Below the pieces are notes generated by a model that did not search any database, was not told the DNA's origin, and saw only the letters and a program-made list of their open reading frames with translations. A stretch of DNA of 64,000 nucleotides from Branchiostoma floridae (taxonomy: Eukaryota; Chordata; Leptocardii; Amphioxiformes; Branchiostomatidae): the NCBI RefSeq assembly GCF_000003815.2, contig NC_049992.1:18296867-18360866 (forward strand), given 5' to 3'. The translations under genes and the position numbers were made by a program. Below are positions 9,559 through 64,000 of the stretch, piece by piece; the stretch's first letter is position 1; each line of letters starts with the position of its first letter.

Positions 9559-9750
9559 TAACGCTGGTTCACCTTTATCCGAGGGTAACCTATAAGGGAT
9601 ATGAAGTTGACGGACGGTGGTTTCAAATCTGAACATTTTAAGAATATTGCAAATTTGAAACCACTGTCAGCAGACTTAATACTCCTAAATGTGCTGTTTT
9701 TAAAGACAACGGATAGAGGTCACCCCATGGATATAGGTGGACAAGTATTA
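9559..9750. mobile_element. MITE with ttcacctttatccg ends
   Basis: An imperfect foldback: left end ttcacctttatccgagggta, right end close to its reverse complement, with gaaaccac/gtggtttc inside. Fuller copy at 43199-43417, partial copy at 58200-58260. Confidence 0.7.
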
Positions 9751-10616
9751 TATGTCTCTCTCTCCCTTCTTTTGTAGTACAGGTAATGTGCTCAACCTCC
9801 CAAAGCGAATATGCTTCGTCCTTAGTTGGAGTTAGTTAAAGCTTTAGGGAAGACTATATGATGGGCATAGCATATCACAGGTTGCCTTCTCCTTTCAAAT
9901 TTTCAAAAGAGCCACAAACATCTCAAATATTAACTCCCCAACTCATCAGGATGAGGTTAATACTTTAGGGTCATGTCAGGTCAATGGGGACATGGTTTCC
10001 ATGGAAACTGCATCCAAAAGCACCAGCCCAATTATCATGACATGACTTTTTATTTCCCAGGACATATTGTCTTCTCTGTGGAGATCAGCTTATTTTCATT
10101 AGATAACACTGGAGGCAATATCGTATATTGTGAAATTATTACATTGTGCCTTCAATTTTTGTAAAAGCCAAATTTTACTAATTAGACCTTTCAAAATTGA
10201 ATGCATTTACATGTAAAACCAATTAGTTTTATTTGCTTTGCTTGGTGTAGTGGAAAAGAATAATCAAGATCAATCTATATTACATGCATGGAAGTCCAAA
10301 ATAATTGAATGTTTTGAGTTCACAAGTTTAAAAAGCCAAAAAGTTGTAAACTAAAGTGAAGAAAAGTCAAAACAATTCTGCTATGAAAAACTAATGCAAT
10401 TGAAAAATTTTTACAGTGTTCTTGTTTTTCAAAAACTAAAAATATCTCAGGACCTGTCCCACTATCCTGGGACAGAAATTTTGGACGGAAAAACATCAGA
10501 GAATCTGCACTTCATGACAGGAACTTGATGAAAGTGAATTTTTGTAAGCTAAGATGAAAGATTTAGCCATGAAAACTAGCAATATGGGTCTACAAACAAT
10601 TATTTGGATGGTCTTC

Positions 10617-23000: not shown

Positions 23001-26000
23001 CTTTGGAGTCACCATTCCACAGATAAGATTAAAGTATTCAACCGAGAATAATTTCATCAGGTTGGTAGGTCATACTCATAGGATAGTAGATATTGTAGTT
23101 AATCTTACCTGCTGATGTTTCGATGCCTATTAGACATCTTCCTCAAAGCTTCTAACTGGAATACTGCTTCTCGCCGCAAAAGCGCCACCTACATCGGCTA
23201 CACATAGCAGCGAGAAGCAGAACTCCATTTAGAAGCTCTGAGGAAGATGCCTGATAGGCATTGAAATGTCAGAAGGTAAGAAAATTAGTACTATCCTATA
23301 CCTTTCCATAATAACAACTTGTGTTCCTTTCTGTTTTGTTTAGGACATCAAGCCTGTGTGTGGCAGCGACAAAGAGACCTACGACAACGAATGCCGCCTG
23401 AAGCTTGCTGCCTGCACCTTGCAAAGAAACATCCGATTGATGAGCAACGGGCCCTGCCCTGATCGAGGTACAAGCGTGTCACCATTTCTGACATAGACTA
23501 CATCATGCTCTCTTTTTGCCGTAACAGTTACGTCATCATAATAATCTCCTGACAATTCTTGCTCCGCCTGCTTTTTGCAGCTACTTCTAATTCTCTTAAC
23601 TTGTCTCCTTTATCAACTCTTAATGCTTTCTGTACTCGGTAACCATCGACTCTCTATACGGAAAAGTAACATCATTATTGGTGATGGTCTTGTATGCTGA
23701 AAAAAATGCCCCTTCTCCTAAACTGCAGGATATGTACCAATTTCTGCCATTCCAGACTCGTATCTGTCATTTAATATAATACTGAACTGGCAACCATTGA
23801 ATCTCTAAACCAAAATCTCCATTCTGTACAAGCCCTTATGAAAAACCTCTCACTATTTCGCCGACTCAAACGCTCAATCGCATCTGCATCACATAAGGTG
23901 CCTATGGTGGCCTATAGTGTGCATGCCATATGGTGGTGAAGTGTAAAATAACCTGATTACTCTACCACTGTACATCTCTCTCAAAAAGATTATCAGAATT
24001 GCTGATATGTCAGCTTTTAAAAAAACATGAAATGATGGCAAAACTAGCAGCAGAAAGATTAGTTCTCAGTTTTTGTAAAGTGATAAATCTTCCATTTTTA
24101 GACCCAAATTTCCAACCATTTATTTTAGAATATTTCCAAGCTAAATGTTCAAATTCATGAAGTGTGACTTTTTGAAGAATCAACCAAAATGATGCCCAGT
24201 ATTCATTGGTTGTGTCAAAGTGCTTAAATGTATATTTTGTTCTGTGAGGCTTGACGGCAAAATAGCACTGTGGAAAAGCAATTTTCTACTATAACAGTAT
24301 AAGAAGCTAAAAGCAATATAATGTCAACTATACATCAAGGTATACATCAACCACACTACCGCAGTAGTGTTGAAAGAATACGAATTCAAATGCTAATGTT
24401 GAACGTTAGTCTGTATGGAGAGTCGTTGTTGCCGTGGGAACTGACACGCCCACCTCATCTTCTTCTCACTTGTGACCTCCCATTTGCATCCTAGTGAAAG
24501 TGTTTCGGCAACAGTTTTTCTCGGATGGTAAGTGTGTGTTCTCTCATATGGAAGGGCGCTAACACCAGTGGGGAAACGGAGAGACTTGTAGTACATCTGC
24601 ATGAATGTACAAATTGACTATGTATTCAAATTTATGTTTGTCTAATAGACAAAATAGCACAGTTATCAAAAAAAAAGTTAAAAACAGTAGAAGCTTCTTC
24701 ATTCAAATCAAAGCTAGTATTGATACCAAGAAAATTACACAAGACAATTGTATTCGTCAAGATGTTGATTTTTCTACTTTCTTAGCAGTAGTACTCAAGT
24801 CCCACCTTTCCCCATTCCCTGCTTGTATTTCATAATGTGGGAGGTGTGTCTTGGTTAAGGAAAGTAGATTGCATGAGATGGGTTCTTCTTCCCCAAAACC
24901 CTTCTGCCATAGCTGCTTTTCCTAACATATTTCAGGATTCCTGGAGGAATGTAAGAGCTTCAGGCTGGCTGTTCTAGTATTAGGAAACAAAGTTTATTTC
25001 GTACATAGCTCATGTTGCAGGTTAATTTTTGCTTAATTTAGATATTGTATTAAGGTTCTATTTCAGGTATGCCAGTTCTGTTCTGTTCAATGTTTTGGAC
25101 ACACATGTATAGGCTTACATGTAGTTTAAACTTTTGTTTCAGCCTGCATGCTTTCTTACCCATATGAAGGAACTATACAGGAATTAATGAGAGCTTTGTG
25201 GATCGTTCTTATATTTCTTCATTATGGGCATGTTATGATTTAGCTCATAAGTTTGTAGCTTCTTAAGGTTAAAGAATAAACAGCATAATATCCATGGTGC
25301 TACATAACAATTACTCATTCAGCAACTGGATGGAATTTGCTACAGTCAGAGGATTCAGACAACTCCTTCTGTCTTTCGTGAGTGACTAGATATTAAGTGT
25401 CGGGATATGCTCTCTGAAACGTCTGACCATTTTCAAATTCTATCCTGTTGCGGGAGTAAGTGTTACGATGTTTATTCTCATTGCCTCTGTGTGACCTTCT
25501 TCGACATGGTGTTCATGGCTTGTGTGCTGTTTCTCAGTCCCCCCTGCCCCTAAGACTGACTGTAAGGAGACAACCTACAAGTGCTGTCCGGATGGCAAGA
25601 CTCCCGCTGCAGGGGCTGGATTCGCTGGCTGTCCAAGTAAGTCTCAAAATCTTTATTATATATTAAGTACATTGTAATTTAAATTTTTTTTTAGTCTGCT
25701 GCTTATGGGTACCAGAGGTCCTTATCTGGGGCATGTAAAACAAGAAAGCTTCTGAAAAAAGCTGGCCGGTGCGTATTTTGGAAAAAGCCTGGATGTTAAA
25801 CAAAATCACATGAAAAAAGAGTTTTTAAACATCGAATTATTGAATTGGTCTGTCTTCTATTAAAAAAATATTACATGAGATTTGTCTAACAAAGAAAAAA
25901 AATTGTTACAAGTGGGGTTCGAACCCACGATCTACGGCTGCAAAAGCAAATCGTTATATCCACCCAGCGCGTAGACCGCTCGGCCACGCAAGCTGATTGC

Positions 26001-38000: not shown

Positions 38001-41000
38001 GGGACAACATGGTAATATAGTTGGTTAATGTCATTAAGTACATGTAGTTGGAAATCTAATGATAGTATATGATGGTTACTTGTTCGCCTGCATCTTTCTA
38101 GTGTAAACTTTCAAGCACTGAATACTGTACAGTTGTGAAATTAATTATTTTCCATACCTTGCTTTCAGAAATTGAAGACGTCCAGACCTTCATCCCAGAA
38201 TTCAGCGGTAACTCCTACATCCAGCGCCCAGGTCTGACTGCCGTCAGCAAGTCCCTGAGTGCTGAGGTCATCTTCTACGCAACCAAGAACAACGGCATGC
38301 TCCTGTACAACGGACAGAAGACTGACGGCAAGGGAGACTTTGTGTCCTTGAACCTGAAGGACGGATACCTGGTCTTCAGATTTAACTTGGGGAAGGGTCC
38401 TGCTGATATCAGGTACGTAGATACGATGATGTTCCACTGACATTTTACCAAATAAGATGGCCACTGACATTCAATCCTCTGAGCAGGGTTGTAGCCAGCA
38501 CCCGTCCTTCCGTCCTTTGACGGAATTTTTGCAGCTGGGGACGGAAAATTTTACCCATTCTGTCCTCTGTGAGCAAAATTTAACCCTCCAAATGCAGGAA
38601 ATAGTGTTTCAGAGGGTCTAGATTTCAAAATTTCCTTGGGACCATGCCCCTGGACCCCCCTAGGAACGCTGTGCCAAAGCCATTCAAATCGAGGGGACGG
38701 AAAATGATTTTGGGCTGGCTACAACCCTGCCTCTGAGAACTCCAAAACTGAAGCGAGCATTGCAAAGACAGAAGTTTGTCTAAAAAAGTTGCATTCTGAA
38801 ATATAAGTTGTCGGGAAGGTTAAACAAGGGACTAAATATATTTAGCAAACTAAAGTTTCTACCAAAATGGGGCCCCAGTTTGAACAGATTGTGGTGAGTT
38901 CTTTTAAAAATATCCTTGTTTTAGATTGAATTTCATAGTGCTTGTGTCAATGGGGAAAATTATGTAAGCTACCACCAAAAAAGTGATCACTCTGGCCAGG
39001 TGGTCCTTGCATTTTTGTATGTACAGGTTTGACTCTGAATGTCATTTGTCATTCATGCTATCATCTTGAAATCTATGTCCTGTACATGCATGTAAGAAAT
39101 ATGCTTCCTATGTTTACTGCTTTAAAAAGGGTTGCAAAATTATCCCAACATTTTTTCCTGTGATCTCAGATCGGAAGATCCCATCAGTCTGAACGAATGG
39201 CACGAGGTCAAGCTGGATCGTAACTTGAGACGAGGGCAGATGACCTTGGATGGCAAGGTCGTGGGCACAGGAGAGTCACCTGTAAGTGGTCCAAAGACTT
39301 GCTCTCCTAGTACAAAATGTGTTTTTCTCTCTTCCTGTGTTTTGATAGATGTAAACTAAAACATTACCTCGGTGAAGATTAGACATCCAGGTAATAAAAT
39401 ATGCCAAAAAGCAGTTACTCAAGCAACTGGATATTTTTTTTTTGTCATTGACAATGGAGAAATCTTGTTGGAATCTGTCCCCTTTTTGCATATTACAGTA
39501 GTTCATAGTTAGGATAAACCTGTTCTTCAACTAGATCTCTTTTGCATGTCAATCCACAGCTAGGATGTAAAACTCTCTCCAACAAGATTGGTCCATTGTC
39601 ACTGACGAAAAACACTTAATGTTGTTTGAAATGTCTGACCGTTTCCAAAATCATATAGTTGCTTGTCTGCTTTTTGGCGTAAAACGTTGCCATTTCTTCT
39701 TATTGTGTACTTAGTGTGTTTCTTGCTTGCATGAGATCTGAAATGCCTATTCTTGCTACTTTATATGTTAATTCCTGAAGAATGTTGTTAGTTTTATAGT
39801 GTAGAAAAATGAATGACCATAAATGATTTGTTGCAAATCTGTCATTGGTTTTTGTCCTTGGTACTGAATCTGTCATTCAAACAGCCTGACCACCCCTATT
39901 TTTGAAGTGCATTGTCCCAAATATAAGATAGAAGCCAGTGCATTGGTAGGAAAGTACTACTTCAAGAATAGGGGAGGCCCACTTTTGCTGGTCCTTCACT
40001 GTATCTCGTTGCTTTGCTTTTCTTGCTGCTAATGTGACTTGTTGCTTTCTCCCCGCTACACAAAAGGGTGGGCCATCCAACAATGTACCGGAGGTAATGA
40101 GGCTTACCCCTCATCTGCACTTTGATTGGTCAGGATACATCACTTTCAGAAGCCTCAACAGCCTCTCAACCAATCACAATGATTGTCTCTAATCCTCTGA
40201 AAATCTAAACTGAATACCAGTCATATGTAGTCAGTAGTATTTCTTGACCAATTATTATCATTTCCTCATTCTTTGAATATCTAAACTCTTGCAGAAATTA
40301 TAGCTAGATCTTTCTGAGTTTTCTTTTAGAAGAAATAATTTTTTCCGGCAATGATAATTTCCTCATTCTTAAAAATTTTAAACTCGTGTAGAAATTATAG
40401 CTAGGACTTTCTTAGTTTTCTTGTAGAAGAAATTCTCATTTTCCCACCAACTAGGATCATTTCTTCATTCTTTAATAAATCTATACTTGTGTAGAAATTA
40501 TAGTTAGAACTTTCTTTGTACTCTTGTAGAAGAAATTCTCTTTTTTTTTCAACTATTATCTTTAATCTGAATGACTACAGCTAATCTTTACATACAAGTA
40601 GTCAACATTACTATGGAGTTGATTAGACATTTTCTGAGGCTTCTGAAAGTCATTTATTTGTGACCAGATCTTTCCATTCCATTTTGCAGTCAAAAGTCTA
40701 ACCAAAAAAAGCTGCAAACTGCACCTGCTGAGGAAGACGCTGCACTATATATGAAGCTGCACTATAATAATTTGCATGTTAGAAATGCACCACGATAATT
40801 CTAATAGCATGGAATCTTACTGCATGATTTTGTGATTGGTGAAATGACGTGCACATGACTTGTTGGATGTACAATCACACAGAATTGTTGATGTGAATTG
40901 ACATTAATGCTTTTAGATGATGCAATCAATGACAAACATGCTTCAATTGCTGGTGAATGTCCTAAGCTTGTTCAATGAGCATTATTATAATAATTGTATG

Positions 41001-44000
41001 AGGCTTGGCTTTGCATGGCTTATGATACTGCTTGTAGGAAAAACATGACAAGACTTTGCCACCATCTGCAGTTGCTGCACAGTTGGCAAACAGATAAAGT
41101 ACCTACATTGACATCTGCACACACTTCCTTCAGTTGCACTTGAACAAACATCCACACGTAGACCATGCACCCTCCCCTGTTCAATGTCCAACTTTTCTTG
41201 AGGACTATCTACATAGAAGAAAAAAATCCAAACCATCCCATCATCCTCTGCTAACAGCCTTCCCACGATCCCTTGCAGGGTACGCTGTCCCAGCTGAACC
41301 TTGGTCTAGATCTGTTTATTGGCGGTGGCGACGATTACTCCACTTTCGCACGCGACGCTGACATCACCACCGGATTCACAGGCGCCATACAAAAGGTAGG
41401 CAATAAATCTAAACCTGTTTACATTATACATGTAGTTGCACATGTTTATATTGCAGGGTGGAGGGTAACAAAAAATGACAAAAATAACAAGCTTGCCATT
41501 GCCAGTCAATACACCAATGCAGTCGAAAACAGAAACATCAAACTGGCCGTCTTGGGTAGATTCCATCAATAAATGAATGACAACTTAGTTTGGAAATTTG
41601 TGCATATTTCTTCTTGTGTAATTTCTTGTACTATGTGTTGTACATTTAGTATGTGAAAGCTACCATTTTGTGCTTCTTAATGGCCATAATGTAGCAAAGA
41701 AAGTTAAAAATAAACTATAAAGTTGCTGATTTTGGTTGCAGGCTTGCAGCTGATATCTGCTATCAATGTAAATGAAATTGCCTGATATGTAAAATCAAGA
41801 TGTGGGTGTACGTTGTGAATTTCATCCCTGTTCTTTTCTTTAGCTGGTCATCGCAGATGTGGAGGTGCCTGATCTTGTTGACGGTGCCCTCGCCGCTGTG
41901 GACATCGAAAACTTCGAGAAACACGGGTGCACCCGTAAGGACAACCCCTGTAAAAACGGAGGCGTGTGCAAGCCCATGATGGCGGACTACAAGTGCGAAT
42001 GTTCCGCTGGCTATACAGGGAAACGCTGTGAGAAAGGTATGTAACATCCATTGATATGATTGTTGTTTGATATGTGGTATGTGCCCTGTGTACATATTGT
42101 TAGCTTCACTTTGCTAGTGCTGAACCCCTAGATGATCTTCGTTCGTGAAGTCCAGCCAAGACAAGAAGATGTATCTTACATGTACCTTAAGTTGTTAAGC
42201 CACAGTCGACGCTGTAGGGCTGATATCAATTAGGATTTTACCATGGTCAATATTGACCGAAGGAGGCCATATATAAGATGTTTGATAGTGTGCCCTACAT
42301 CTTTTTTTAACATGCATATCAGGCTGTATAGTGCAAGTTGCTTGTAGAGAGGAGCAAATAAAAGCAAGTGGAGTAAGAAAGAGCAAGAAGTTTAAAAATC
42401 TCTACTGTATGTAAGGCTTATTATTGAGCAACCTGATAGGACAATTAGTGATTTAAGCACATTTATCCTTTGCAAGAGCAAGAAAAATGTTGGTCATCGT
42501 TGTCGAGCAAGAAGCTTAAAAAGCTGTATGTAAGGCTTACTGATAAGCGACCTGATAGGACATTTTGTGATCCAAGCACATTTATCATTGCAAGAGGAAG
42601 AAAAAATGCAATTTTTTTCATGGTTGTCTTTGTTTGATTGACAGCTCCAAGTGAGTCAGTCGACCCCGCCCCTCTGCGACAGGAAGGCGTCGGCCTTGAC
42701 GGGACAACCATCCTCAGCTATCCCAACGCCATCAACAAAAGGTGCGTGCCTTTATACACTCCACAATTCTTTGTACTTTCAGACTATTGTCTACAACAAC
42801 TGTGTGACTTCCTTCTTTGTCTTTGGTTTTGCATGAGAGCCTAGTGCATAAAGCATCTATCTTCGAATAATACCTTAATCAAGAAATGTATAACTGTAGA
42901 TAGAAATGGGAAAAATGTTCGACGTACGTAGGGGAAAAAGGGACTGTTCACCATGAAACTGCATGCAGAGTTTTTGTGTTAAAGAGGGGAGGGGGGCCTT
43001 TAAGTTTAATGTTCACCTTGAAAACTACAAACATAAAACCACCAAACATATTTTACAGTAGTCTGATTTCCTGTTGTTTTTCCTGTGAGCTTGATTATTA
43101 AATTTTACTTTGTTCTGTTTGATTGTTTAAGTATGTGAAGCTTTCTTTGTTTTTTCCAATGTTGCACCATGCTACCCCTCCCTGAGCACTGTACATTGTT
43201 ACGCTTTTTCACCTTTATCTGCGGAATAACCTATATCCGTTTTTTTTGTAAACGATATTAAGGGATATCACTTTCGACAGGCAGTTGTTTCAAATTGCTA
43301 TGTTTTGAGTATTGCAATTTGAAATCACTGTCTGTAGGCTTTCTATCCCTAAAACCCCTAGTTTTTCTAAAAGAACGGATATAGGTTACCCCGCGGATAA
43401 AGGTGAACTAGCATTACATGTACATGTACAAAATGTAACTCGTGTGTAGTGCATGTCTAAACTTGTTCGCTTTCTCTCTCTTCCTCTCTCTGCTTTTATC
43501 TTCAAGGGAGTCCAATTCTATTCGAGAACAGTAAGTCTCTCTTCTTCCTCTTTCTTTTCTCATGATTTGAAGTCTCTCTGATCTTGTACATGTATCTGAT
43601 GCTTGTGTACCCTGCTGAAACAAAATGGCATCTGTCCTTTATCTATGAAAATTAGTAAGAAGCTCAGAGACTGTTCTTGTCATGTTTGTGGACAATGATG
43701 TTTTGGCTCCTACTTTGTCTCACTTGTGTCTCAACAATTGTTTTGTAAAACACTTCCATCACAATATTTGTATTTGTTTATACATTTAGACAAGGTACAA
43801 AAGGATATTCAACAGTAAATAGTGGTCAGTAACAGCAAATCTACATGCATCAACATCAGTTGAAATATGAAATAGTAGGACAATATCCCCTTGGTGGTTA
43901 TAGAAGAAGAAGAACTTTATTGCACGACAATTGTACATGGTACAAAGTATGGCAACAGCTATTACATATAGTACAAAATAGAGGTATAGGATAAAGTTTA

Positions 44001-45627
44001 ACATCCTTGTTAACATAACAATAAGGGCTAACATAATTCATTCATATATAGTGAAGCAGTGTGTTTTCTCCAAGCTAGGTGGCACTCCAAAGAAATTAAA
44101 GTAAGACCTTTCCTTCTTACTGTTCCAGTACAGTGTGTACTATAGGAATTCTTTTTGTTCGCCAATTCTCATTTTGCGTTCCAACCTTTGACCTTCAGGG
44201 AGCCCAACCAGGACGACAATCACTTTGAGGTGACCTTCCGGACGACCTCTGACCACGGGCTGCTGCTCTGGAACCACAAGCCCGGCGGCGGTGACTTCAT
44301 CGCCCTTGCCATCGTGGGCGGGAAACCCCAGCTGACCTACAAACTGGGAAAACAACCGTTCACCATCGAGTCTCCGATCACGGTGAACACGGGACGTTGG
44401 GTCACCATTGTGGCTGACAGGTGAGTGTTTACTACTGCAATACACCTTTTTCATGTGCGCGGCGGCCATGACAGTGATGGGAACATAGAGTGCTAAGTAC
44501 ATTTACAGGCTCTGACTGGCAGAAAAACTACCGACTGACCAAACTCACTTTCGATTATTTGTGTGACAAGTTGTGGCCGAGACTTCAGCGGTTGCGTGGT
44601 ATTGTGCGCTCTACTAGAAGTCTGACTGTTTTGTGTTTTTATAACTATCAATCTCTTGTCTTTGTATCTCCAGGAACAAGCGGGAGGGCTCACTGGAGAT
44701 TGTGGGGGTGGAAGGCTCCACTCAGACGGGAGAGTCACCGCCTGGTGCCTCCCAGCTCAACACTGATGGTGTCCTCTGGATAGGTATGTACTGAGTGCAC
44801 CATCTGGTATAGTTAAGCCAGTATGCCCCTCTCCCAATATCCCAACCTTTCAGTCTGAATAAAAAGTTACATGTCATCAATGTGCATGTACCCGTTATAG
44901 CGTGGCCGAACGGTCTACGGCTCTGGGTGCAGATAGCGATTTGCTTTTGCAGCCGTGGATCGTGGGTTCGAACCCCACTTGTAACAATTTTTTTTTCTTT
45001 GTTAGACAAATCTCATGTAATGTTTTTTTTAATAGAAGACAGATCAATTCAGTAATTCGATCATGCTTAAAAACTATTTTTTCATGTGATTTTGTTTAAC
45101 ATCCAGGCTTTTCCCAAAATACGCACCGGCCAGCTTTTTTCAGAAGCTTTCTTGTTTCTGTTTTTGCCAGGCAGCTGAAGTCTGCATACATGTAAATTTT
45201 TGTAGCTTACAGATCTTTATTAACTTTCTGACAATCCGACTGATTTCAATAGCCAAAATTGCATTTGGTCTTTTATATCCACCAGCCCATGGCCAGTACT
45301 TACACTTCTGTGGGCCCCAAAAGATGAAATATGGTAACAATGTATCTAGTTGCAAAATATTAGAGTGTAATTTTGTTATAACATGGGAAACAATGTGCTA
45401 TGATGATATGTAATTAATCATGAACCTTAGAGTTTTGAAATGGACCTAAACTAAACTATTCCTACTTTATTTCAGGTGGATTCAGCGGAGCTCTCCCCAG
45501 CGGCCTGCCCTCAGAGTACAACTCCGGCTTCGTAGGCTGCATCAAAGACGTGAAAATCGACAGACAAGAGCTAGACCTTCTACAGAACTCCATAGAAAGA
45601 AGGAATCTAAAGCCCTGCACTGGATAA
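10856..45627 (+). CDS. AGRN: Agrin (heparan-sulfate proteoglycan), 5' partial, 33 exons
   Basis: Agrin is a secreted or membrane-anchored proteoglycan of basement membranes; in vertebrates its C-terminal LG domains bind dystroglycan, heparin and LRP4 to organise synapses. I joined 33 exons by GT/AG sites and phase, giving about 1,751 codons up to TAA at 45625. Order seen: FS1-3, SEA, FS4-8, a CC module, LE1-2, FS9, Thr-rich linker, EGF1, LG1, EGF2-3, LG2, EGF4, LG3. Agreement with vertebrate agrin is module by module, for example GFWNFRG in LE1, [15 protein letters not shown] in LG2 and [10 protein letters not shown] in LG3. Most module borders are phase 1. The first exon seen starts with a phase-1 acceptor, so signal peptide and any NtA domain are upstream. 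Odd points: the SEA domain is between FS3 and FS4, and three optional microexons exist (separate entries). Identity is very secure; exon edges are by eye. Confidence 0.97.
11225..11460 (+). mobile_element. LINE 3' end with (GATACA)n tail
   Basis: A broken reading frame recalls the C-terminus of LINE reverse transcriptases ([15 protein letters not shown]), followed by the tail cggatacagatacaga. A related fragment is at 15640-15830. Confidence 0.6.
12515..12880 (+). repeat. 182-bp tandem duplication of the intron end before FS2
   Basis: The stretch starting taaccattagaaatgc at 12515 returns at 12697. Both copies end in a splice-acceptor-like tract (ctcaccag near 12693, ctccccag at 12877). Only the second leads into coding sequence. 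Confidence 0.85.
12878..13102 (+). CDS. AGRN: Agrin exon: FS module 2
   Basis: Phase 1-1 exon of 225 nt between ctccccag and gtaagt. It encodes a whole FS module with DCRYGSSC in the first half and [18 protein letters not shown] in the Kazal core. A 182-bp tandem duplication of the intron end lies just upstream. Confidence 0.95.
13636..13745 (+). CDS. AGRN: Agrin exon: FS module 3, first half
   Basis: Phase 1-0 exon of 110 nt between cccccag and gtaagg. It encodes the N-terminal half of FS3 ([23 protein letters not shown]). The Kazal core is on the next exon, as in FS6, FS8 and FS9. Confidence 0.93.
14136..14340. mobile_element. MITE with ccaaaccgg / ccccaggttggg ends
   Basis: Inverted-repeat element inside the FS3 intron. 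Its ends (ggtctcatttccaaaccgg and caggttgggaattgggcct) and the inner cgtttccaaaagc / gcggaaac pair recur at 17299-17495 and 56612-56905. Confidence 0.7.
14436..14559 (+). CDS. AGRN: Agrin exon: FS module 3, Kazal half
   Basis: Phase 0-1 exon of 124 nt between tctcccag and gtcagt. It reads [20 protein letters not shown], completing FS3. The usual VCGSDG has become ICASNG. Confidence 0.93.
15197..15327 (+). CDS. AGRN: Agrin exon: SEA domain, first half
   Basis: Phase 1-0 exon of 131 nt between ctttacag and gtaagt. The sequence [30 protein letters not shown] fits the start of a SEA domain (a beta strand, then the S-x-EY-x2-L helix). SEA domains are extracellular modules of heavily glycosylated proteins. 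Its place between FS3 and FS4 differs from vertebrate agrin. Confidence 0.85.
15339..15580. mobile_element. Foldback MITE in the SEA intron
   Basis: Arms read gtgggtacttacatagctta and its reverse complement, extending through aggatgaaggagaattct on both sides, about 100 bp per arm. The middle (gcttctaactggagttctg) recurs at 23060-23310. Confidence 0.85.
15640..15830 (+). mobile_element. LINE 3' end fragment, same family as 11.2 kb
   Basis: Shares aggtgtgacaggtc, the phrase around ttggtgtatcatgcc and the tail ctatacagatacaaa with the copy at 11225-11460. It lies in the intron that splits the SEA domain. Confidence 0.55.
16050..16222. mobile_element. MITE, tagtctccaagcaga family
   Basis: Left end aatctccaagcagatcc, right end aaatctgcatggagatta, with gccagctttgatactatttt near the right end, as in the copy at 56405-56612. 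Confidence 0.65.
16288..16486 (+). CDS. AGRN: Agrin exon: SEA domain, second half
   Basis: Phase 0-1 exon of 199 nt between ttccatag and gtaaac. It continues the SEA fold with [20 protein letters not shown], followed by an amphipathic helix ([16 protein letters not shown]). I see no clear GSVVV-type self-cleavage motif; the matching strand reads DGSIKVIF. Confidence 0.85.
16540..16672 (+). mobile_element. LINE 3' end with (GAT)n tail
   Basis: One frame reads [20 protein letters not shown] then PPARDDR and a stop, the typical end of a LINE ORF2, followed by seven gat units. It lies just after the second SEA exon. Confidence 0.65.
17021..17236 (+). CDS. AGRN: Agrin exon: FS module 4
   Basis: Phase 1-1 exon of 216 nt between cattgcag and gtgagt. 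It encodes [16 protein letters not shown] followed by a Kazal core [18 protein letters not shown]. It follows the SEA exons directly in phase. Confidence 0.95.
17299..17495. mobile_element. MITE, copy 2 of the ccaaaccgg family
   Basis: Left end aagtctcaattcctaacctg, right end cccggtttggaaatggcacc, with tttcgaaaacgg and cgtttccgcaaac inside. It sits in the intron between FS4 and FS5. Confidence 0.7.
17776..17997 (+). CDS. AGRN: Agrin exon: FS module 5
   Basis: Phase 1-1 exon of 222 nt between ccttacag and gtaagt. It encodes [20 protein letters not shown] and [18 protein letters not shown], a canonical FS module. Confidence 0.96.
18716..19132 (+). mobile_element. Composite palindromic repeat, copy 1
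   Basis: Part one runs from tgtcatacctgtgacgcg to ggtgggtatgacat, with inverted ends. Part two, 19003-19132, is a foldback with arms caacacggtgtattccgcat. Both parts recur side by side and in the same order at 58950-59332. It lies in the intron before FS6. Confidence 0.8.
20312..20406 (+). CDS. AGRN: Agrin exon: FS module 6, first half
   Basis: Phase 1-0 exon of 95 nt between cttcatag and gtaagc. It encodes [18 protein letters not shown] and [10 protein letters not shown]. The 2.3-kb intron before it holds a composite repeat shared with 58.9 kb. Confidence 0.94.
20854..20968 (+). CDS. AGRN: Agrin exon: FS module 6, Kazal half
   Basis: Phase 0-1 exon of 115 nt between cactacag and gtacgt. 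It encodes [20 protein letters not shown], the Kazal core that completes FS6. Confidence 0.95.
21552..21782 (+). CDS. AGRN: Agrin exon: FS module 7 with Ser-Gly attachment site
   Basis: Phase 1-1 exon of 231 nt between ccttgcag and gtacgg. After the FS module ([32 protein letters not shown]) the exon ends with [10 protein letters not shown]. This acidic Ser-Gly run is a likely glycosaminoglycan attachment site at the same place, between FS7 and FS8, as in vertebrate agrin. Confidence 0.95.
22035..22130. mobile_element. Short MITE with gatatgccaaaaagcagt ends
   Basis: Starts gatatgccaaaaagcagtta and ends aactgctatttggcatatc. A longer relative with the same left end is at 39390-39685. Confidence 0.7.
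22589..22746 (+). CDS. AGRN: Agrin exon: FS module 8, first half
   Basis: Phase 1-0 exon of 158 nt between tccatcag and gtaaca. It opens with the acidic [10 protein letters not shown], which extends the Ser-Gly region, then encodes [16 protein letters not shown] and CICETKC. Confidence 0.93.
23060..23310. mobile_element. Foldback MITE, second copy, in the FS8 intron
   Basis: Shares the centre (gcttctaactggaatactgc, tagcagcgagaagcagaact) and tttcgatgcctattagacat arms with 15339-15580. It ends only about 30 bp before the FS8 Kazal exon acceptor. Confidence 0.8.
23344..23467 (+). CDS. AGRN: Agrin exon: FS module 8, Kazal half
   Basis: Phase 0-1 exon of 124 nt between ttgtttag and gtacaa. It encodes [19 protein letters not shown] and completes FS8. 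A palindromic repeat lies immediately upstream in the intron. Confidence 0.95.
25538..25636 (+). CDS. AGRN: Agrin exon: CC-PDG module before LE1
   Basis: Phase 1-1 exon of 99 nt between ttctcag and gtaagt. It encodes [20 protein letters not shown] followed by FAGCP. Vertebrate agrin has the same small CC module just before its laminin-EGF repeats. No LG or protease role is implied. Confidence 0.93.
25737..26020 (-). mobile_element. tRNA-derived SINE, copy 1
   Basis: The minus strand has a Leu/Ser-type tRNA head with perfect A-box (tggccgagcgg) and B-box (gggttcgaacccc), then a body ending accggccagcttttttcaga. The opposite-strand copy at 44897-45160 shares head and body. It lies in the intron between the CC module and LE1. 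Confidence 0.8.
26375..26855 (+). mobile_element. LINE 3' end: ORF2 C-terminus and (CATT)n tail
   Basis: A frame ending at 26722 reads [20 protein letters not shown], then [20 protein letters not shown] and a stop, typical of LINE ORF2 C-termini. The 3' UTR has cttagcccagtggggcaaaa and ends in cattcattcatt. Confidence 0.8.
26905..27066 (+). CDS. AGRN: Agrin exon: laminin-type EGF module 1
   Basis: Phase 1-1 exon of 162 nt between ccattag and gtgagt. It encodes [33 protein letters not shown] and NFRG, an eight-cysteine LE module nearly matching vertebrate agrin LE1. Confidence 0.97.
27662..27805 (+). CDS. AGRN: Agrin exon: laminin-type EGF module 2
   Basis: Phase 1-1 exon of 144 nt between cctgccag and gtgagt. 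It encodes [20 protein letters not shown] and [13 protein letters not shown], matching vertebrate agrin LE2 closely. Confidence 0.97.
28704..28843 (+). CDS. AGRN: Agrin exon: FS module 9, first half
   Basis: Phase 1-0 exon of 140 nt between ccccacag and gtatgg. It encodes [19 protein letters not shown] and [16 protein letters not shown] 2.7-kb intron with a large transposon foldback separates it from the Kazal half. Confidence 0.94.
29150..30426. mobile_element. Tc1/mariner-derived giant foldback
   Basis: Arms of about 557 bp (29150-29706 and 29869-30426) are near-perfect inverted repeats around a 162-bp loop. On the plus strand the left arm and loop carry a decayed DDE-transposase segment: [17 protein letters not shown], then a frame-broken DNA-RPH-RAR-like stretch ([11 protein letters not shown]). 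It sits inside the intron that splits FS9. Confidence 0.85.
29592..29858 (+). pseudogene. Tc1/mariner transposase fragment
   Basis: The open frame reads [19 protein letters not shown], then GPNAILQ, where full transposases have the YRDxIL and FQQDNARPH regions. A small insertion breaks the second catalytic Asp region. Neither the first Asp nor the C-terminal catalytic residue can be located, so it is not active. Confidence 0.75.
30639..30656 (+). CDS. AGRN: Candidate 18-nt agrin microexon (RPVDWR) in FS9
   Basis: A long pyrimidine tract ending in cacatcag, 18 nt, then GG|gtaagt. Phase 0-0, so it inserts RPVDWR between the two FS9 halves, just before VCGSDG. Its sites look as good as those of constitutive exons. 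Vertebrate FS9 as I recall it has no such insert. Splicing is inferred, not observed. Confidence 0.65.
30741..31159. mobile_element. DNA transposon relic with tagtggtgcgtacc ends
   Basis: Starts tagtggtgcgtacc and ends ggtacgcaccacta, perfect 14-bp inverted repeats. The subterminal DNA is rich in aggtccag and ggacct motifs in both orientations. It lies about 80 bp after the 18-nt microexon. Confidence 0.75.
31586..31694 (+). CDS. AGRN: Agrin exon: FS module 9, Kazal half
   Basis: Phase 0-1 exon of 109 nt between caacacag and gtgagt. It encodes [20 protein letters not shown] and completes FS9, the FS module that lies after the LE pair as in vertebrates. Confidence 0.95.
32545..32644. other. 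Assembly gap of 100 N
   Basis: Exactly 100 undetermined bases in the intron between FS9 and the Thr-rich linker. The length is probably nominal. Extra linker exons could be hidden here. Confidence 0.99.
32799..32828 (+). CDS. AGRN: Agrin exon: short Thr-rich linker
   Basis: A 30-nt phase 1-1 exon between ctctgcag and gtgaga that encodes [10 protein letters not shown], a likely O-glycosylated linker. It follows the 100-N gap, so a neighbouring linker exon could be missing from the assembly. Confidence 0.8.
33708..33842 (+). CDS. AGRN: Agrin exon: Thr/Ser/Pro-rich linker
   Basis: Phase 1-1 exon of 135 nt between tgctcag and gtgagt. It reads [19 protein letters not shown] and continues Thr- and Pro-rich. 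Three N-glycosylation sequons (NTT, NLT, NAT) and one unpaired cysteine are visible. In vertebrates a mucin-like stretch and the SEA domain occupy this part; only the mucin-like stretch is found here. Confidence 0.85.
34939..35163 (+). CDS. AGRN: Agrin exon: linker end and EGF module 1
   Basis: Phase 1-1 exon of 225 nt between ataaacag and gtagga. A Thr/Pro-rich stretch ([15 protein letters not shown]) leads into a six-cysteine EGF module, [15 protein letters not shown] and [14 protein letters not shown]. Confidence 0.95.
35655..35847 (+). CDS. AGRN: Agrin exon: LG1, part 1
   Basis: Phase 1-2 exon of 193 nt between ctttacag and gtaagt. It encodes the start of laminin-G-like domain 1, including [13 protein letters not shown] and [20 protein letters not shown]. 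Confidence 0.96.
36313..36528 (+). CDS. AGRN: Agrin exon: LG1, part 2
   Basis: Phase 2-2 exon of 216 nt between cttcacag and gtaggg. It encodes [28 protein letters not shown] and [14 protein letters not shown], the middle strands of LG1. Confidence 0.96.
36935..37179 (+). CDS. AGRN: Agrin exon: LG1 end and EGF module 2
   Basis: Phase 2-1 exon of 245 nt between cacacag and gtgaga. It ends LG1 ([13 protein letters not shown]) and begins EGF2 ([26 protein letters not shown]), which is finished on the next exon. Confidence 0.96.
37523..37660 (+). CDS. AGRN: Agrin exon: EGF2 end and EGF module 3
   Basis: Phase 1-1 exon of 138 nt between cacccaag and gtatgt. GPLCG closes EGF2, then [19 protein letters not shown] and [14 protein letters not shown] form EGF3. 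This EGF pair between LG1 and LG2 is diagnostic for agrin. Confidence 0.96.
38169..38412 (+). CDS. AGRN: Agrin exon: LG2, part 1
   Basis: Phase 1-2 exon of 244 nt between gctttcag and gtacgt. It encodes [12 protein letters not shown], then [20 protein letters not shown] and LGKGPADIR, nearly identical in places to vertebrate LG2. Confidence 0.97.
39170..39281 (+). CDS. AGRN: Agrin exon: LG2, part 2, ending at the y-site position
   Basis: Phase 2-0 exon of 112 nt between atctcag and gtaagt. It encodes [20 protein letters not shown] and ends in GTGESP. In vertebrates the KSRK y insert follows this same GESP. A 2-kb intron follows that carries a 27-nt microexon candidate. Confidence 0.95.
39390..39685. 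mobile_element. MITE relative of the 22.0-kb element
   Basis: Starts aaaatatgccaaaaagcagt and ends ctgctttttggcgtaaaa. The inner phrase gtctgaccgtttccaaaatc matches the 22.0-kb copy in reverse. It lies in the intron that carries the y-site microexon. Confidence 0.65.
40067..40093 (+). CDS. AGRN: Candidate 27-nt agrin microexon at the y-site position
   Basis: Between a pyrimidine-rich acceptor ending in cacaaaag and the donor GAG|gtaatg lie 27 nt in phase 0-0 that encode GGPSNNVPE. Inclusion would place nine residues after GTGESP in LG2, where vertebrates add KSRK. The insert is not basic, so it would not be expected to add heparin binding. The predicted splicing was not tested. Confidence 0.6.
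41279..41395 (+). CDS. AGRN: Agrin exon: LG2, part 3
   Basis: Phase 0-0 exon of 117 nt between cccttgcag and gtaggc. It encodes [20 protein letters not shown] and [11 protein letters not shown]. From the preceding GESP to this GG is 16 residues, the same as in vertebrate agrin. Confidence 0.96.
41844..42036 (+). CDS. AGRN: Agrin exon: LG2 end and EGF module 4
   Basis: Phase 0-1 exon of 193 nt between tctttag and gtatgt. After the last LG2 strand it encodes [20 protein letters not shown] and [14 protein letters not shown], the EGF module between LG2 and LG3. Confidence 0.96.
42645..42741 (+). CDS. AGRN: Agrin exon: LG3 first strand, ending at the z-site position
   Basis: Phase 1-2 exon of 97 nt between attgacag and gtgcgt. 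It encodes [20 protein letters not shown] and then [10 protein letters not shown]. In vertebrates the corresponding exon ends just before the alternative z exons. Confidence 0.94.
43199..43417. mobile_element. MITE with ttcacctttatc ends
   Basis: Left ttcacctttatctgcggaat, right ccgcggataaaggtgaac, with tttcaaattgc and gcaatttgaaa inside. It lies about 90 bp before the z8-like microexon. Confidence 0.8.
43507..43530 (+). CDS. AGRN: Candidate 24-nt agrin microexon: z8-like insert ESNSIREQ
   Basis: A long CT-rich tract ends in atcttcaag, followed by 24 nt and a consensus donor ACA|gtaagt. The phase is 2-2, matching both flanking exons. Inclusion adds ESNSIREQ, exactly eight residues, six residues before NHFE of LG3. 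Vertebrate neural z8 is also eight residues, begins with E, sits six residues before NHFE and has an essential N-x-I (here N-S-I). In vertebrates z8 confers LRP4 binding and receptor clustering. Position, size, phase and motif all agree; transcription of this exon is inferred. Confidence 0.8.
44199..44420 (+). CDS. AGRN: Agrin exon: LG3, part 2
   Basis: Phase 2-2 exon of 222 nt between ccttcag and gtgagt. It encodes [39 protein letters not shown] and [13 protein letters not shown]. Confidence 0.97.
44674..44783 (+). CDS. AGRN: Agrin exon: LG3, part 3
   Basis: Phase 2-1 exon of 110 nt between tctccag and gtatgt. It encodes [20 protein letters not shown] and [13 protein letters not shown], matching vertebrate LG3. 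Confidence 0.97.
44897..45160 (+). mobile_element. tRNA-derived SINE, copy 2
   Basis: Head gttatagcgtggccgaacgg through ggttcgaaccccacttgtaa, then a T-rich junction and a body with tgtttaacatccaggctttt, shared with copy 1. The A-box carries one change (gaacgg). Confidence 0.8.
45476..45627 (+). CDS. AGRN: Agrin terminal exon: LG3 end and stop
   Basis: Terminal exon after tatttcag, with the stop TAA at 45625-45627. It encodes the last LG3 strands, including [20 protein letters not shown] and LKPCTG, which agrees with the vertebrate C-terminus. Confidence 0.97.
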
Positions 45628-48448: not shown

Positions 48449-49740
48449 TCACATAATGATGCCGAGATGTACGGACAAGTCACCCGTCCAGATAACTATC
48501 GGTTCAGATTTTATCAGTGATTCTTTGATGTTACTTTCTAAAACTTCGTCGTCCATATCCTCATTCAAGATCTTGTCAAACAAAGAATCCGCATCTCCTC
48601 CGCTTCCCATTGACCCTTCTAAGCTGTTAATAAATCCCAGCACAAGCTGAAGAGTCTCAGACACAGAGTCTGTCTCCGTTTGAACACCGAGAAGTATCAA
48701 CTCCTTTAGTTCATGGAAGGAACCGATGTGGTCAGCTAGAAGAGCGAGACAGGCAGTGGTCATCTTGTTTGAACTCACGTCCACTCTACCCAAAGCTTTC
48801 ATGTGACGTAGTTGCCTGAAAATCGCAGACATACCTTTGTCTGTGATCTGATTCCCTGCAATGTTAATGTTACGAACGTGAGAAAGTTTTCTCAGAGTTT
48901 CAGCGATCGTCAGTGCGGAGTCTTCTTCTAGCCCACAGGCGCTTAGATCCACCGATGTTAGGTTTCTCATGGTGCGAAACACGTGGGACATTTTCGTGAC
49001 GTCCTCGGGCGACACATGAACACCTGAGAGGTTTAATACTCGAAAGTCTGTCTTTTCTAGATGCTGCAAAGACGAGAGTTCGTCTATCAGGTGCTTCGTA
49101 CCCGGTGGTGTTGTCTTGTTTCCAGTTAGCTTGAGAACCTTGAGGTTACGTACGTGGGGAAAAGCCCGTGTAAGCTCTACTATGTTTGCATCGTTCAAAC
49201 CATTGTTGGTGAGGTCCAGTTCTTCTAGAAGATCTAAACATATCAACCGCTGCGAAAGCGTCCCTACGTCAGCATCTGACAGTCTTTGATTCTGTAAGAC
49301 TAGCACCTTAAGGTGGTTCATGAACAGGAGTAGGTCTAAGTTAGGGAAAGGCCCATCAGTTCGTACCAACGAAGATCTTGACTTGATTGTTGTGCTGAAT
49401 TGCATGTTTACTTCGCCGATGCCTGACAACTTTGCCAAGTTGTCGTGGAGGACCTTGTAAAACTGGATAGCAGTTTCACCATCGTTTTCCCGTGAGAGGT
49501 TCGACCCGTCCTCCACACAGTACAGCACGAAGTCCGTCAGGGTCGCTGGAGGCTGCCTGCAGTCCTTCCAGTAGGAGCATACGAAGGCCCAGAAGTACTT
49601 GTCCTGTAGCAGACAGGAGAGGAGCGAGCTGGTGCGGAAAGGAGCGTGCAGGGTGCTGCCGTCACCTCCCTGGAAGAAATCCACGATGTACTTCTCAAAA
49701 GTCGGATAGTGAGTCGGGTCCAGTAGGCCCTGGCAATCAC
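48449..49740 (-). CDS. LRR exon with NACHT-remnant-like start
   Basis: Terminal exon after cgtcacag, in phase with the TRADD-N exon, ending in a stop at 48449. The first 90 codons (LLSCLLQDKYFWAFVCSYWK, PPATLTDFVLYCVED) recall the post-nucleotide-binding helices of NLR proteins. About seven RNI-type LRRs follow, then an acidic C-terminus (NEDMDDEVLESNIKESLI). Confidence 0.85.
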
Positions 49741-57481: not shown

Positions 57482-58383
57482 GGCGTCAGTTGACTAGAGA
57501 AGACTCTGGTACTCTGAAAACTGGCACAAAATTTGGTTCGTATCCTTGTAGAATCGTTCACAATGATATGATTATGTTTGTTGTCTCTTTAAAGCAATCG
57601 AATTTTTTACCAGTGAAATAGACAACACGTGAGCGGTTTTTGTGCGTACGACTATGTAAAGTTTCGAGGCCTAAAAAAGCATAATGAAGTTGTTCGAAAA
57701 TAGACTCTGAAGTATAACTCTCCCACTTGAATAGTTCTTCATTCCCCTTCCTTTGTGTCCAGCTGGTATTCTATATGGTAAGATGATTTTGAAAAAAAAT
57801 AAATAAAGAAAAAAAAACGAGAAGAAAAAACGACAAATTCTGACATTTACACTTACAACCAACTATCCGCCGAAGATACTGAACATGCAGTTGATCAAGG
57901 GGCAATGCTATGGGGGAACTGTCCGTTAAGGGAATATAAAAAAGAAGTACTTACTTGATCAGTAGGAAACGCCACGTACGCAATATGTTCTTTCAATTGG
58001 TAGTTTCTTTTAGTGACACCCCATGAGAACCTACCATATGGCAGTGGTAAGTTAGGAACAAACAGATCATAACTATGATATCGCACTTCGGTAGAAAAAT
58101 ATTGACTTTTAGATTTGCTTTAACATGGCGTTCAGGTTTAGCACAGGTCGATGATCAAATTGGAGTTGTGCAGACCTGAATTCTTTTATGTCAACCTGTA
58201 ACGCTAGTTCACCTTTATCCGGGGGGGGGGGGGGGGGGCAACCTAAATCCGTTGCAAACCTACTCTACACAGTTCACAGTTGGAGTCTAAATCCTAGATA
58301 CTTGCCATTTAATATGCTGCCAGGAACACGTTAACTACCACCATGAAATATTCATTGAGGTTATACCTTTACTAGCGTTTGTT

Positions 58384-61316: not shown

Positions 61317-64000
61317 ATGTGGTTTTCTGAAATGATGCCCAAGACTAAAATGACGACTTTGGGGTGTGAAAATTGGATCCTTGTATTCGTGCTGTTAGTG
61401 ACATGGAATGGATCAAATTGCACAGCTGTTCAATCAAACATCAATTGTTGTCATCGAAGTTCCTTTCAATCATTACTGACGTGTTGGAAAAACTGTAATT
61501 TCAACAACATCCCCGCACCATTGGCATTGCCGACAACTCTGAAAAACTTGTTCATACGGCAACAGAACATCAGGAACATCACAGCCGGGGATTTTCCCCG
61601 TCATGAGATTTTGGAGAGTCTGTCTATCTGGGACAGTAACGTGTTAGAGTTAGATCGAGGGGCCTTTGAAAGCTTGCCGTCCTTAGAAGCATTAGATCTT
61701 CGTAGGAACAAGATAAGGAGACTGAAGCCAGAGACATTTAAGGGACTGGCTAGGCTTACCACGTTGAATTTAGAGGATAACAAGATACATCAAATCGACA
61801 GCAAAGCATTTGTCGGTCTCTACAGACTAGAATTCCTCAGGCTAAGTATGAACTGTCTTTCTAGCATTCCTAGAGGGATTTGGTCATTTGTTAACAGTGA
61901 TCATGAACTCGTGCTGCAACTGAGTGAAAACCCTATCACATCGATCTCAGAAGTTGAGGAATTACGCCACATCTCTACTGCTGTAAGTTTGAGTCTAAGG
62001 AGCAGTCAGCTGCTGTGCGATTGTAAGCTAAGAGAAATCAAGAGCTGGCTTCTCGAAAATAATCATCTGAGGTGGGACATCCAGTGCATGGTCGGTGGTA
62101 ACAGAGACCGACTGAAGGGTGTAGATTGGCAGGATCTCATGTGCACCTCACCTGATGTATCCGTCTCCTTAGACAATGGGACTGCTACAGGTGAGGTTTC
62201 TCTCACCTGCCGGACAGACTGTCAGGAAGGTCTGGCGTTCGTGTGGGTCACGCCAAGTGGTGACTACAGACCGCCGAGCTACGAGTACTATAACAACTAC
62301 ACGCACGTCAGCAGATCGTCTTGCAAAGGCTCTCCCGTCACTAGCTGGGAAACAAGAAGAATGTGCTACTCCGTGTTGAACATCCCCTCGGTTGGTAACG
62401 GCACAAATGGCACGTACACATGTCAGGTGACAGCTGACCATACAGACAATGCGAGCGCATCAGCCGTGCTCCTTCTCAGTAGTAGCACTGAGACCACCGT
62501 TATGACCGTCACACCACAAGCAGGGAATAAATCTGTTGATAAGAAGAACACCACCGGAGCGTACAGGCCGGAACTCCAGACGACAGTCATGATCACCACA
62601 CTGCCAGCAAGGGATAAGGCTGTCGAAAAGGAGACCACAAATGGTACAGAGTTCGAACTGTCTACTGCCCAGCTTATATTTGTAGGGCTGGGATCTTTCT
62701 GTGGATGTTCTGTCATCATCGGCGTGATCGCTGCTTGTGTGAGCAGGTGTCAAGTGGACAGTGCGAACGGACAGAGGGACGCTGGAGATGGACACCAGGG
62801 TACCAGTGGTCGGTCTTCTGTCACGGATGGTGCCGAGAACGCACAATGCGAGAACGATGACCAGTTTACGGACACTGAAGGAGCCACCGGTGGTCACTAT
62901 GAGAACGATGACCAGTTTGCGGACACTAAAGGAGCCGCCGGTGGTCACTATGAGAACGATGACCAGTTTACGGACACTAAAGGAGCCACCGGTGGTCACT
63001 ATGAGAACGATGACCAGTTTGCGGACACTAAAGGAGCCGCCGGTGGTCACTATGAGAACGATGACCAGTTTACGGACACTAAAGGAGCCGCCGGTGGTCA
63101 CTATGAGAACGATGACCAGTTTACGGACACTAAAGGAGCCGCCGGTGGTCACTATGAGAACGATGACCAGTTTACGGACACTAAAGGAGCCGCCGGTGGT
63201 CACTATGAGAACGATGACCAGTTTTCGGACACTAATGGAGCCGCCGGTGGTCACTATGAGAACGATGACCAGTTTACGGACACTAAAGGAGCCACCGATG
63301 GTCACTATGAGAACGATGACCAGTTTTCAGACACTAATGGAGCCGCCGGTGGTCACTATGAGAACGATGACCAGTTTTCGGACACTGAAGAAGCCCTCGG
63401 TGGTCACTATGAGAACGATGACCAGTTCTTAGGTGATGACGTCAGTAAGCACTCAAACAAGACAGCACCAGGAAAACCAACCAGCGGGGAACCAGGGAAG
63501 GCACCCTCCTCTACTGGAGCCAAAAGGACCAGACCTAGTCAAAACCAGAGGGGCTTGGCCACAACAAGAGCTGGGTCGAACAACAAAACGGCCATGGCAA
63601 TTTCACGCATTGTTGCTATCCATGCCGAAGCACAAGCGAGTGGACAATATGACAACGACAGGAAAGATGGGAGACAAAACCTCAACAACACGAATGCTAC
63701 GGCAACCTCAGCCGGCAGGGCATCTGATGACGAAGAACAGACAGCTGGCCACTATGACAACGACAAGACCGCCAACGCTTCAAACGCCACCGTAAGAACC
63801 GATGACGACAGCGACTCAGATCACGACTACATGTCGCTACCTGGGAACAGATCGGCAGGACGAGAGACAGAACAAGGAGAAGTGGGGAGCAAAGCTGGGG
63901 AGAAAAATCCTGTCTCCATTTCTCTAAGTGCCACTGAAGTGTCAGAGAATGGGTATATAACGCTCCCTGATACGGAAAATGCCGGCGATAACTCTGTCTC
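61317..64000 (+). CDS. LRR-Ig transmembrane receptor with tandem YEN tail repeats, 3' open
   Basis: One uninterrupted frame of 894 codons to the window end. An in-frame TGA precedes the ATG at 61317; Met codons at 61332, 61335 and 61350 are other starts. A hydrophobic signal (NWILVFVLLVTWNG) precedes an N-terminal cysteine cap, about five LRRs (residues 65-215; LEALDLRRNKIRRL, LTTLNLEDNKIHQI), an LRR C-terminal cap (LLCDCKLREIKSWL) and one Ig-type domain (VSLTC, GTYTCQV). Residues 453-475 are the membrane helix (LIFVGLGSFCGCSVIIGVIA). The tail has twelve copies of a 17-residue repeat from residue 512, then QYDND, HYDND, DYMSLP and GYITLP. Related LRR-Ig receptors are numerous in amphioxus. 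I infer tyrosine-phosphorylation docking; the ligand is unknown. Confidence 0.9.
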   Translation, partial: MWFSEMMPKTKMTTLGCENWILVFVLLVTWNGSNCTAVQSNINCCHRSSFQSLLTCWKNCNFNNIPAPLALPTTLKNLFIRQQNIRNITAGDFPRHEILESLSIWDSNVLELDRGAFESLPSLEALDLRRNKIRRLKPETFKGLARLTTLNLEDNKIHQIDSKAFVGLYRLEFLRLSMNCLSSIPRGIWSFVNSDHELVLQLSENPITSISEVEELRHISTAVSLSLRSSQLLCDCKLREIKSWLLENNHLRWDIQCMVGGNRDRLKGVDWQDLMCTSPDVSVSLDNGTATGEVSLTCRTDCQEGLAFVWVTPSGDYRPPSYEYYNNYTHVSRSSCKGSPVTSWETRRMCYSVLNIPSVGNGTNGTYTCQVTADHTDNASASAVLLLSSSTETTVMTVTPQAGNKSVDKKNTTGAYRPELQTTVMITTLPARDKAVEKETTNGTEFELSTAQLIFVGLGSFCGCSVIIGVIAACVSRCQVDSANGQRDAGDGHQGTSGRSSVTDGAENAQCENDDQFTDTEGATGGHYENDDQFADTKGAAGGHYENDDQFTDTKGATGGHYENDDQFADTKGAAGGHYENDDQFTDTKGAAGGHYENDDQFTDTKGAAGGHYENDDQFTDTKGAAGGHYENDDQFSDTNGAAGGHYENDDQFTDTKGATDGHYENDDQFSDTNGAAGGHYENDDQFSDTEEALGGHYENDDQFLGDDVSKHSNKTAPGKPTSGEPGKAPSSTGAKRTRPSQNQRGLATTRAGSNNKTAMAISRIVAIHAEAQASGQYDNDRKDGRQNLNNTNATATSAGRASDDEEQTAGHYDNDKTANASNATVRTDDDSDSDHDYMSLPGNRSAGRETEQGEVGSKAGEKNPVSISLSATEVSENGYITLPDTENAGDNSV
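62850..63425 (+). repeat. 51-bp coding tandem repeat, 12 copies
   Basis: Units start every 51 bp from 62850 to 63411. The consensus residue unit is ENDDQFTDTKGAAGGHY. Eleven unit junctions create HYEND, with Tyr codons from 62898 to 63408. Copies differ only at a few positions (T/A/S, K/E/N, A/T), which suggests recent expansion or homogenisation. The last copy diverges after DQF. Confidence 0.97.

Follow-up and report, generated by a model that had tools for sequence, protein, structure and literature searches.

Introduction

At the neuromuscular synapse, the z exon of agrin serves as a textbook example of an RNA switch; in vertebrates, it enables agrin from nerve to cluster receptors on muscle. 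Here, we analyze the corresponding site in the agrin gene of the amphioxus Branchiostoma floridae, in a 64,000-nucleotide (nt) stretch of contig NC_049992.1 (hereafter called "the window"), where a 24-nt microexon adds eight residues to the LG3 domain. In humans, PTBP1 represses the agrin Y and Z exons at CU-rich sites. A 2007 paper on C. elegans concluded that both agrin splice sites are vertebrate-specific. According to Hossain et al. 2025 (PMC12445529), the Z exons of Ciona are functional: their inclusion is mainly neural and requires Nova, and they act through Lrp4. In that account, Ciona Nova is both necessary and sufficient, and its element needs at least two consecutive YCAY motifs. The same source describes a microexon with N-X-I at the corresponding position of the Branchiostoma lanceolatum agrin gene model. 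This putative Z exon (PMC12445529, S2 Fig), compared here by its published description, is probably orthologous to the cassette analyzed here.

A preliminary description of this stretch had put the microexon forward as undescribed. That claim must be withdrawn, as the N-X-I microexon is already in Hossain et al. 2025, and lancelet isoforms with the insert are among the existing NCBI models. In our view, the z exon is thus known, and it is very probably genuine and conserved. Our additions are modest: its conservation in further lancelets, the annotation of both splice forms, the PTB-like flanks, the LRP4 gene, and a y-site cassette.

Structure and conservation of the z-site microexon

The z-site cassette (43507-43530, + strand) has phase 2-2 and the sequence GGAGTCCAATTCTATTCGAGAACA, with the acceptor tatcttcaag/GGAG and the donor gtaagt. 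It adds the residues ESNSIREQ, which contain the motif N-S-I. The reading frame is preserved both by splicing 42741 to 43507 and 43530 to 44199, and by skipping the cassette; the insert at the LG3 z junction is frame-preserving and is modelled as optional. These joins bear out the coordinates, splice signals, phase, and peptide given in the preliminary description. It had also noted a consensus donor, which stands for the intronic half, while the exonic side (ACA/gtaagt) is weak. The splice scores are 5.8 for the acceptor and 2.3 for the donor.

How specific is this candidate? We scanned the surrounding 1,457-nt intron for segments of 6-45 nt, in steps of 3, with phase 2-2 and no stop codon, at relaxed cut-offs, and the z cassette was the sole candidate. 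Among order-1 Markov versions of the intron, evaluated at the cassette's own scores, any candidate appeared in 9 of 1000, and a second run produced a 24-nt candidate in 1 of 2000; a candidate with N-x-I/V occurred in 0/1000 and 0/2000 of these null introns. In a control with real DNA, 40 tiles of the window in each of three phases gave a candidate in 2, 2, and 1 tiles, none of them with N-x-I/V. The scan speaks for specificity and not for sensitivity, which is incomplete: it missed the cassette at 40067-40093 in the y intron. A z11-like second exon within 43531-44198 was also considered and dropped, as none was listed at the relaxed cut-offs by this same scan that had missed the y cassette.

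Among the NCBI agrin models of B. floridae x B. japonicum, X22 (P0001) and X19 (P0002) carry ESNSIREQ and X23, X21, and X3 (P0003-P0005) are without it, counts that do not amount to an isoform census, the lancelet entries being gene models that represent clusters of 90% identity. The B. belcheri model X4 (P0006), which stands for 84 sequences, includes ESNSIREQ. In comparison with this entry, the insert is identical in 8/8 residues, while the flanks agree in 23/32 residues before it, 8/10 just after it, and 142/150 in the rest of LG3; the peptide is thus conserved at the residue level in a related species. The LG3 of the window, when read with the insert, is identical to that of isoform X22 in 200 of 201 residues.

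The position of the insert was compared with the vertebrate exons in an LG3 alignment, for which 112 of 127 agrin proteins were cut and aligned; 15 proteins without the cutting motif were dropped, and P0019, which is not an agrin, had been excluded beforehand. In 18 vertebrate rows, a z8-type insert, xL[TSA]NEIPx, occupies the very junction that bears the insert in amphioxus (17 of the 18 fit the pattern, and the exception, P0087, reads QLTNEIPE). This junction is shared with both vertebrate z8 and z11. The alignment therefore agrees with the earlier statement that the insert lies at the vertebrate z8 place, with an N-x-I motif and six residues ahead of the N[H]FE stretch. Among the 120 of 433 agrin matches that were listed, the names are lancelet and vertebrate.

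Putative splicing-regulatory flanks of the z cassette

The long pyrimidine tract claimed upstream of the cassette was found at 43462-43503, three bases before the exon. It consists of alternating UCUC with one UGC (43491-43493), and no other 40-nt run on the + strand of the window reaches 90% pyrimidine; the purine counterpart comprises one run, at 57790-57833. UCUC/CUCU occurs 11 times at the z cassette, as compared to at most 3 times at 19 other predicted acceptors. In addition, PTB-like motifs number 7 in the 200 nt upstream of the cassette and 8 in the first 200 nt on its 3′ side (43531-43730), versus 1.4 expected at the window rate. YCAY, in contrast, occurs 3 times in the latter segment versus 3.0 expected, with no enrichment around the cassette and with counts below the window's expectation in both flanking introns. 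An explanation by Nova through YCAY enrichment is thus unsupported. The z intron contains three close YCAY pairs (42948/42951, 43756/43759, and 44038/44042).

The UGC and the AG-free zone were considered as eMIC markers and set aside as not discriminating, since 8 of the 19 other acceptors also have UGC and 3 of them have an AG-free zone that is longer. A search of the amphioxus genome for the SRRM_C domain gave no match, but all 14 of 14 control genomes were likewise without a match.

A long palindromic, MITE-like (miniature inverted-repeat transposable element-like) element lies at 43190-43424, about 80 nt 5′ of the cassette, with a second, related copy at 9553-9755 and a short fragment at 58194-58226. 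Compared with its shuffles, the stretch 43180-43600 folds much better (z = -10.4).

The LRP4 receptor gene

The same genome contains an LRP4 gene (C4:11.378-11.398 Mb) that encodes LDLa repeats and several propellers. Against the LRP4 propeller-1 chain 3v64_C, its propeller 1 scores 443.6 bits, versus 290 for the single-propeller LRP6 chains; this propeller shares 72% identity with horse LRP4 and 99.6% with the NCBI lancelet LRP4-like X3. We had considered this similarity as support for the switch and dropped it: because propeller 1 is equally similar in the acorn worm (72%) and the sea urchin (71%), it is evidence for the presence of the receptor and not for that of the switch. In an LRP4 propeller exon, two frames (L033-L034, starting at C4 11395614 and 11396499) are nearly identical and lie less than 1 kb apart, and this pair is a small duplication, either of the gene itself or of the assembly.

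A cassette at the y site

A second microexon, of 27 nt with phase 0-0, is located at 40067-40093 in LG2, between the exon 39170-39281, which ends with GESP, and the exon 41279-41395, which starts with GTLSQLNL. It adds GGPSNNVPE; isoform X3 (P0005) includes it, and the remaining four B. floridae x B. japonicum entries lack it, as does B. belcheri X4. The cassette is placed at exactly the vertebrate KSRK junction, where 36 of 126 aligned proteins have the KSRK insert. The amphioxus insert is non-basic and includes the N-x-V motif N-N-V. The 200 nt upstream of this cassette contain a single PTB-like motif, in contrast to those of the z cassette. We found no report of this cassette in the agrin and amphioxus literature consulted (passages of PMC12445529 and PMC9208267), which does not prove that none exists; the main text of Hossain et al. 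(PMC12445529) contains no Y exon, Y site, or KSRK. The y-site cassette is possibly a new observation and the least known part of the locus; if confirmed in transcripts, it would extend the pre-vertebrate argument to the second splice site.

The agrin gene and other features of the window

Judged from its sequence, the host gene is agrin. The domain order in our partial model consists of Kazal/follistatin repeats, laminin-EGF, EGF, and LG1-LG3, with LG3 last; the LG3 matches solved agrin structures in the PDB, the laminin G domain is matched in Pfam, and the full-length matches are named agrin-like. The gene is on the + strand of the window, as are all of the exons given here, and the coding sequence stops at 45627. 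The chained model comprises 21 exons from 10856 on and keeps the phase at all junctions but one. It omits exons found in the NCBI proteins and places some boundaries wrongly: when six exon peptides were compared with isoform X3, two were present whole and four were absent as modelled.

The exon upstream of the z site (42645-42741, 97 nt, phase 1-2) starts LG3 and ends with SYPNAINK+AG. The downstream exon (44199-44420, 222 nt, phase 2-2) has an agrin LG3 match in the PDB, and is followed by a further LG3 exon (44674-44783, 110 nt, phase 2-1) and by the last coding exon of agrin, 45476-45627, with the stop codon. The exon 42645-42741 itself encodes N-A-I, which matches the extra conserved N-X-I/V before the z site, without known function, that is mentioned by Hossain et al. 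(PMC12445529). Another alternative microexon in the NCBI isoforms (24495-24527, 33 nt) lies ahead of the laminin-EGF region; it is present in P0002, P0004, P0005, and B. belcheri X4 (P0006), and skipped in P0001 and P0003.

Elsewhere in the window, the intron 44784-45475 includes a stretch with GGTTCGAACCCC (44894-44985) that looks tRNA-like by eye; across the whole window, no tRNA was called by ARAGORN. Downstream of agrin, a minus-strand open frame (48449-49684, 411 amino acids) appears leucine-rich-repeat-like by eye. A tandem repeat array at 62460-63432, open on both strands, is probably a minisatellite.

Discussion

We consider that the z cassette is a real exon homologous to vertebrate z8, with a probability of roughly 0.8. 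On this reading, the amphioxus z exon would be included in neural tissue, and the insert-bearing LG3 would bind LRP4. Could the cassette instead be a chance splice-like string and no exon at all? Its splice scores are moderate, and some candidate turned up in 5 of the 120 tile-phase tests of the window. However, no null sequence contained a candidate with N-x-I/V, the B. lanceolatum microexon was reported independently (PMC12445529), and the NCBI models of two lancelet entries include the cassette with an identical peptide. Because the NCBI isoform models include it, the chance string is very unlikely indeed.

A microexon of independent origin at a splicing hotspot deserves more consideration. 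Its N-x-I would be coincidental, and the insert would alter another property of LG3, such as dystroglycan or calcium-dependent binding, instead of LRP4 binding. Several observations weigh on this side and against homology with z8. The initial E, which the preliminary description had counted as a shared feature, is found in 2 of the 18 vertebrate z8-type inserts and is a weak resemblance. The register is shifted, as N and I are residues 3 and 5 of the amphioxus insert versus 4 and 6 in the 18 vertebrate inserts, and there is little similarity to vertebrate z8 beyond these two residues. Moreover, N-x-I/V alone is weak evidence, since 4.0% of random open 24-mers with the composition of the intron carry it (N-x-I in 2.1%), and according to a published comment, alternative exons that share a regulating factor appear repeatedly at different positions of orthologous genes. 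On the other hand, both the junction and the insert length are those of vertebrate z8, N-x-I/V/F is present in three chordate lineages with its function demonstrated in Ciona (PMC12445529), and the octapeptide is identical in two lancelet entries. We therefore regard an independent origin as improbable. The exon may also be real and z8-homologous, yet depend for its regulation mainly on Nova acting at YCAY elements, as is the case in Ciona, rather than on a PTB/eMIC-like mode, a reading that differs from our favored one in the regulator alone. The three close YCAY pairs are consistent with the requirement for at least two consecutive YCAY described for Ciona Nova (PMC12445529), whereas the YCAY counts of both introns, below the window's expectation, argue against it, and we hold Nova control to be a possible but doubtful alternative.

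Under z8 homology, the z switch of agrin likely predates vertebrates, as the preliminary description had proposed. The z-site position, the N-x-I motif, and the reported Ciona and B. lanceolatum exons point to this, and it is supported by the z peptide, which is the same in two lancelet entries. More tentatively, since amphioxus has a z cassette with N-S-I and a y cassette with N-N-V, the y and z sites may both have been present in the last common chordate ancestor, with the basic vertebrate KSRK exon as a later replacement, and at least the amphioxus z site may be under a CU-tract (PTB/eMIC-like) code, not dense Nova sites. The exact exon coordinates, the flanks, and the LRP4 gene are now defined for the putative amphioxus agrin switch.

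How does the locus compare with the known systems? The y cassette is like the vertebrate agrin y exon (KSRK) in its LG2 junction after GESP, and unlike it in adding nine residues that are not basic; a heparin-type function does not necessarily extend to it. The Ciona Z exons are likewise microexons at the z site of a non-vertebrate chordate, with the motif N-X-F (N-X-V in C. savignyi); according to Hossain et al. (PMC12445529), Ciona has two exons of 6 and 5 residues and 18 YCAY in the downstream intron, while amphioxus has one exon of 8 residues and no YCAY excess. The vertebrate z8 exon (B/z site; human exon 32) differs from the amphioxus exon in the positions of N and I (3 and 5 in amphioxus), in its E-I-P, and in its z11 partner, a counterpart of which was not among the candidates of our scan. 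The two exons are alike in their LG3 junction, in their length of 24 nt, in their N-x-I motif, and in being optional.
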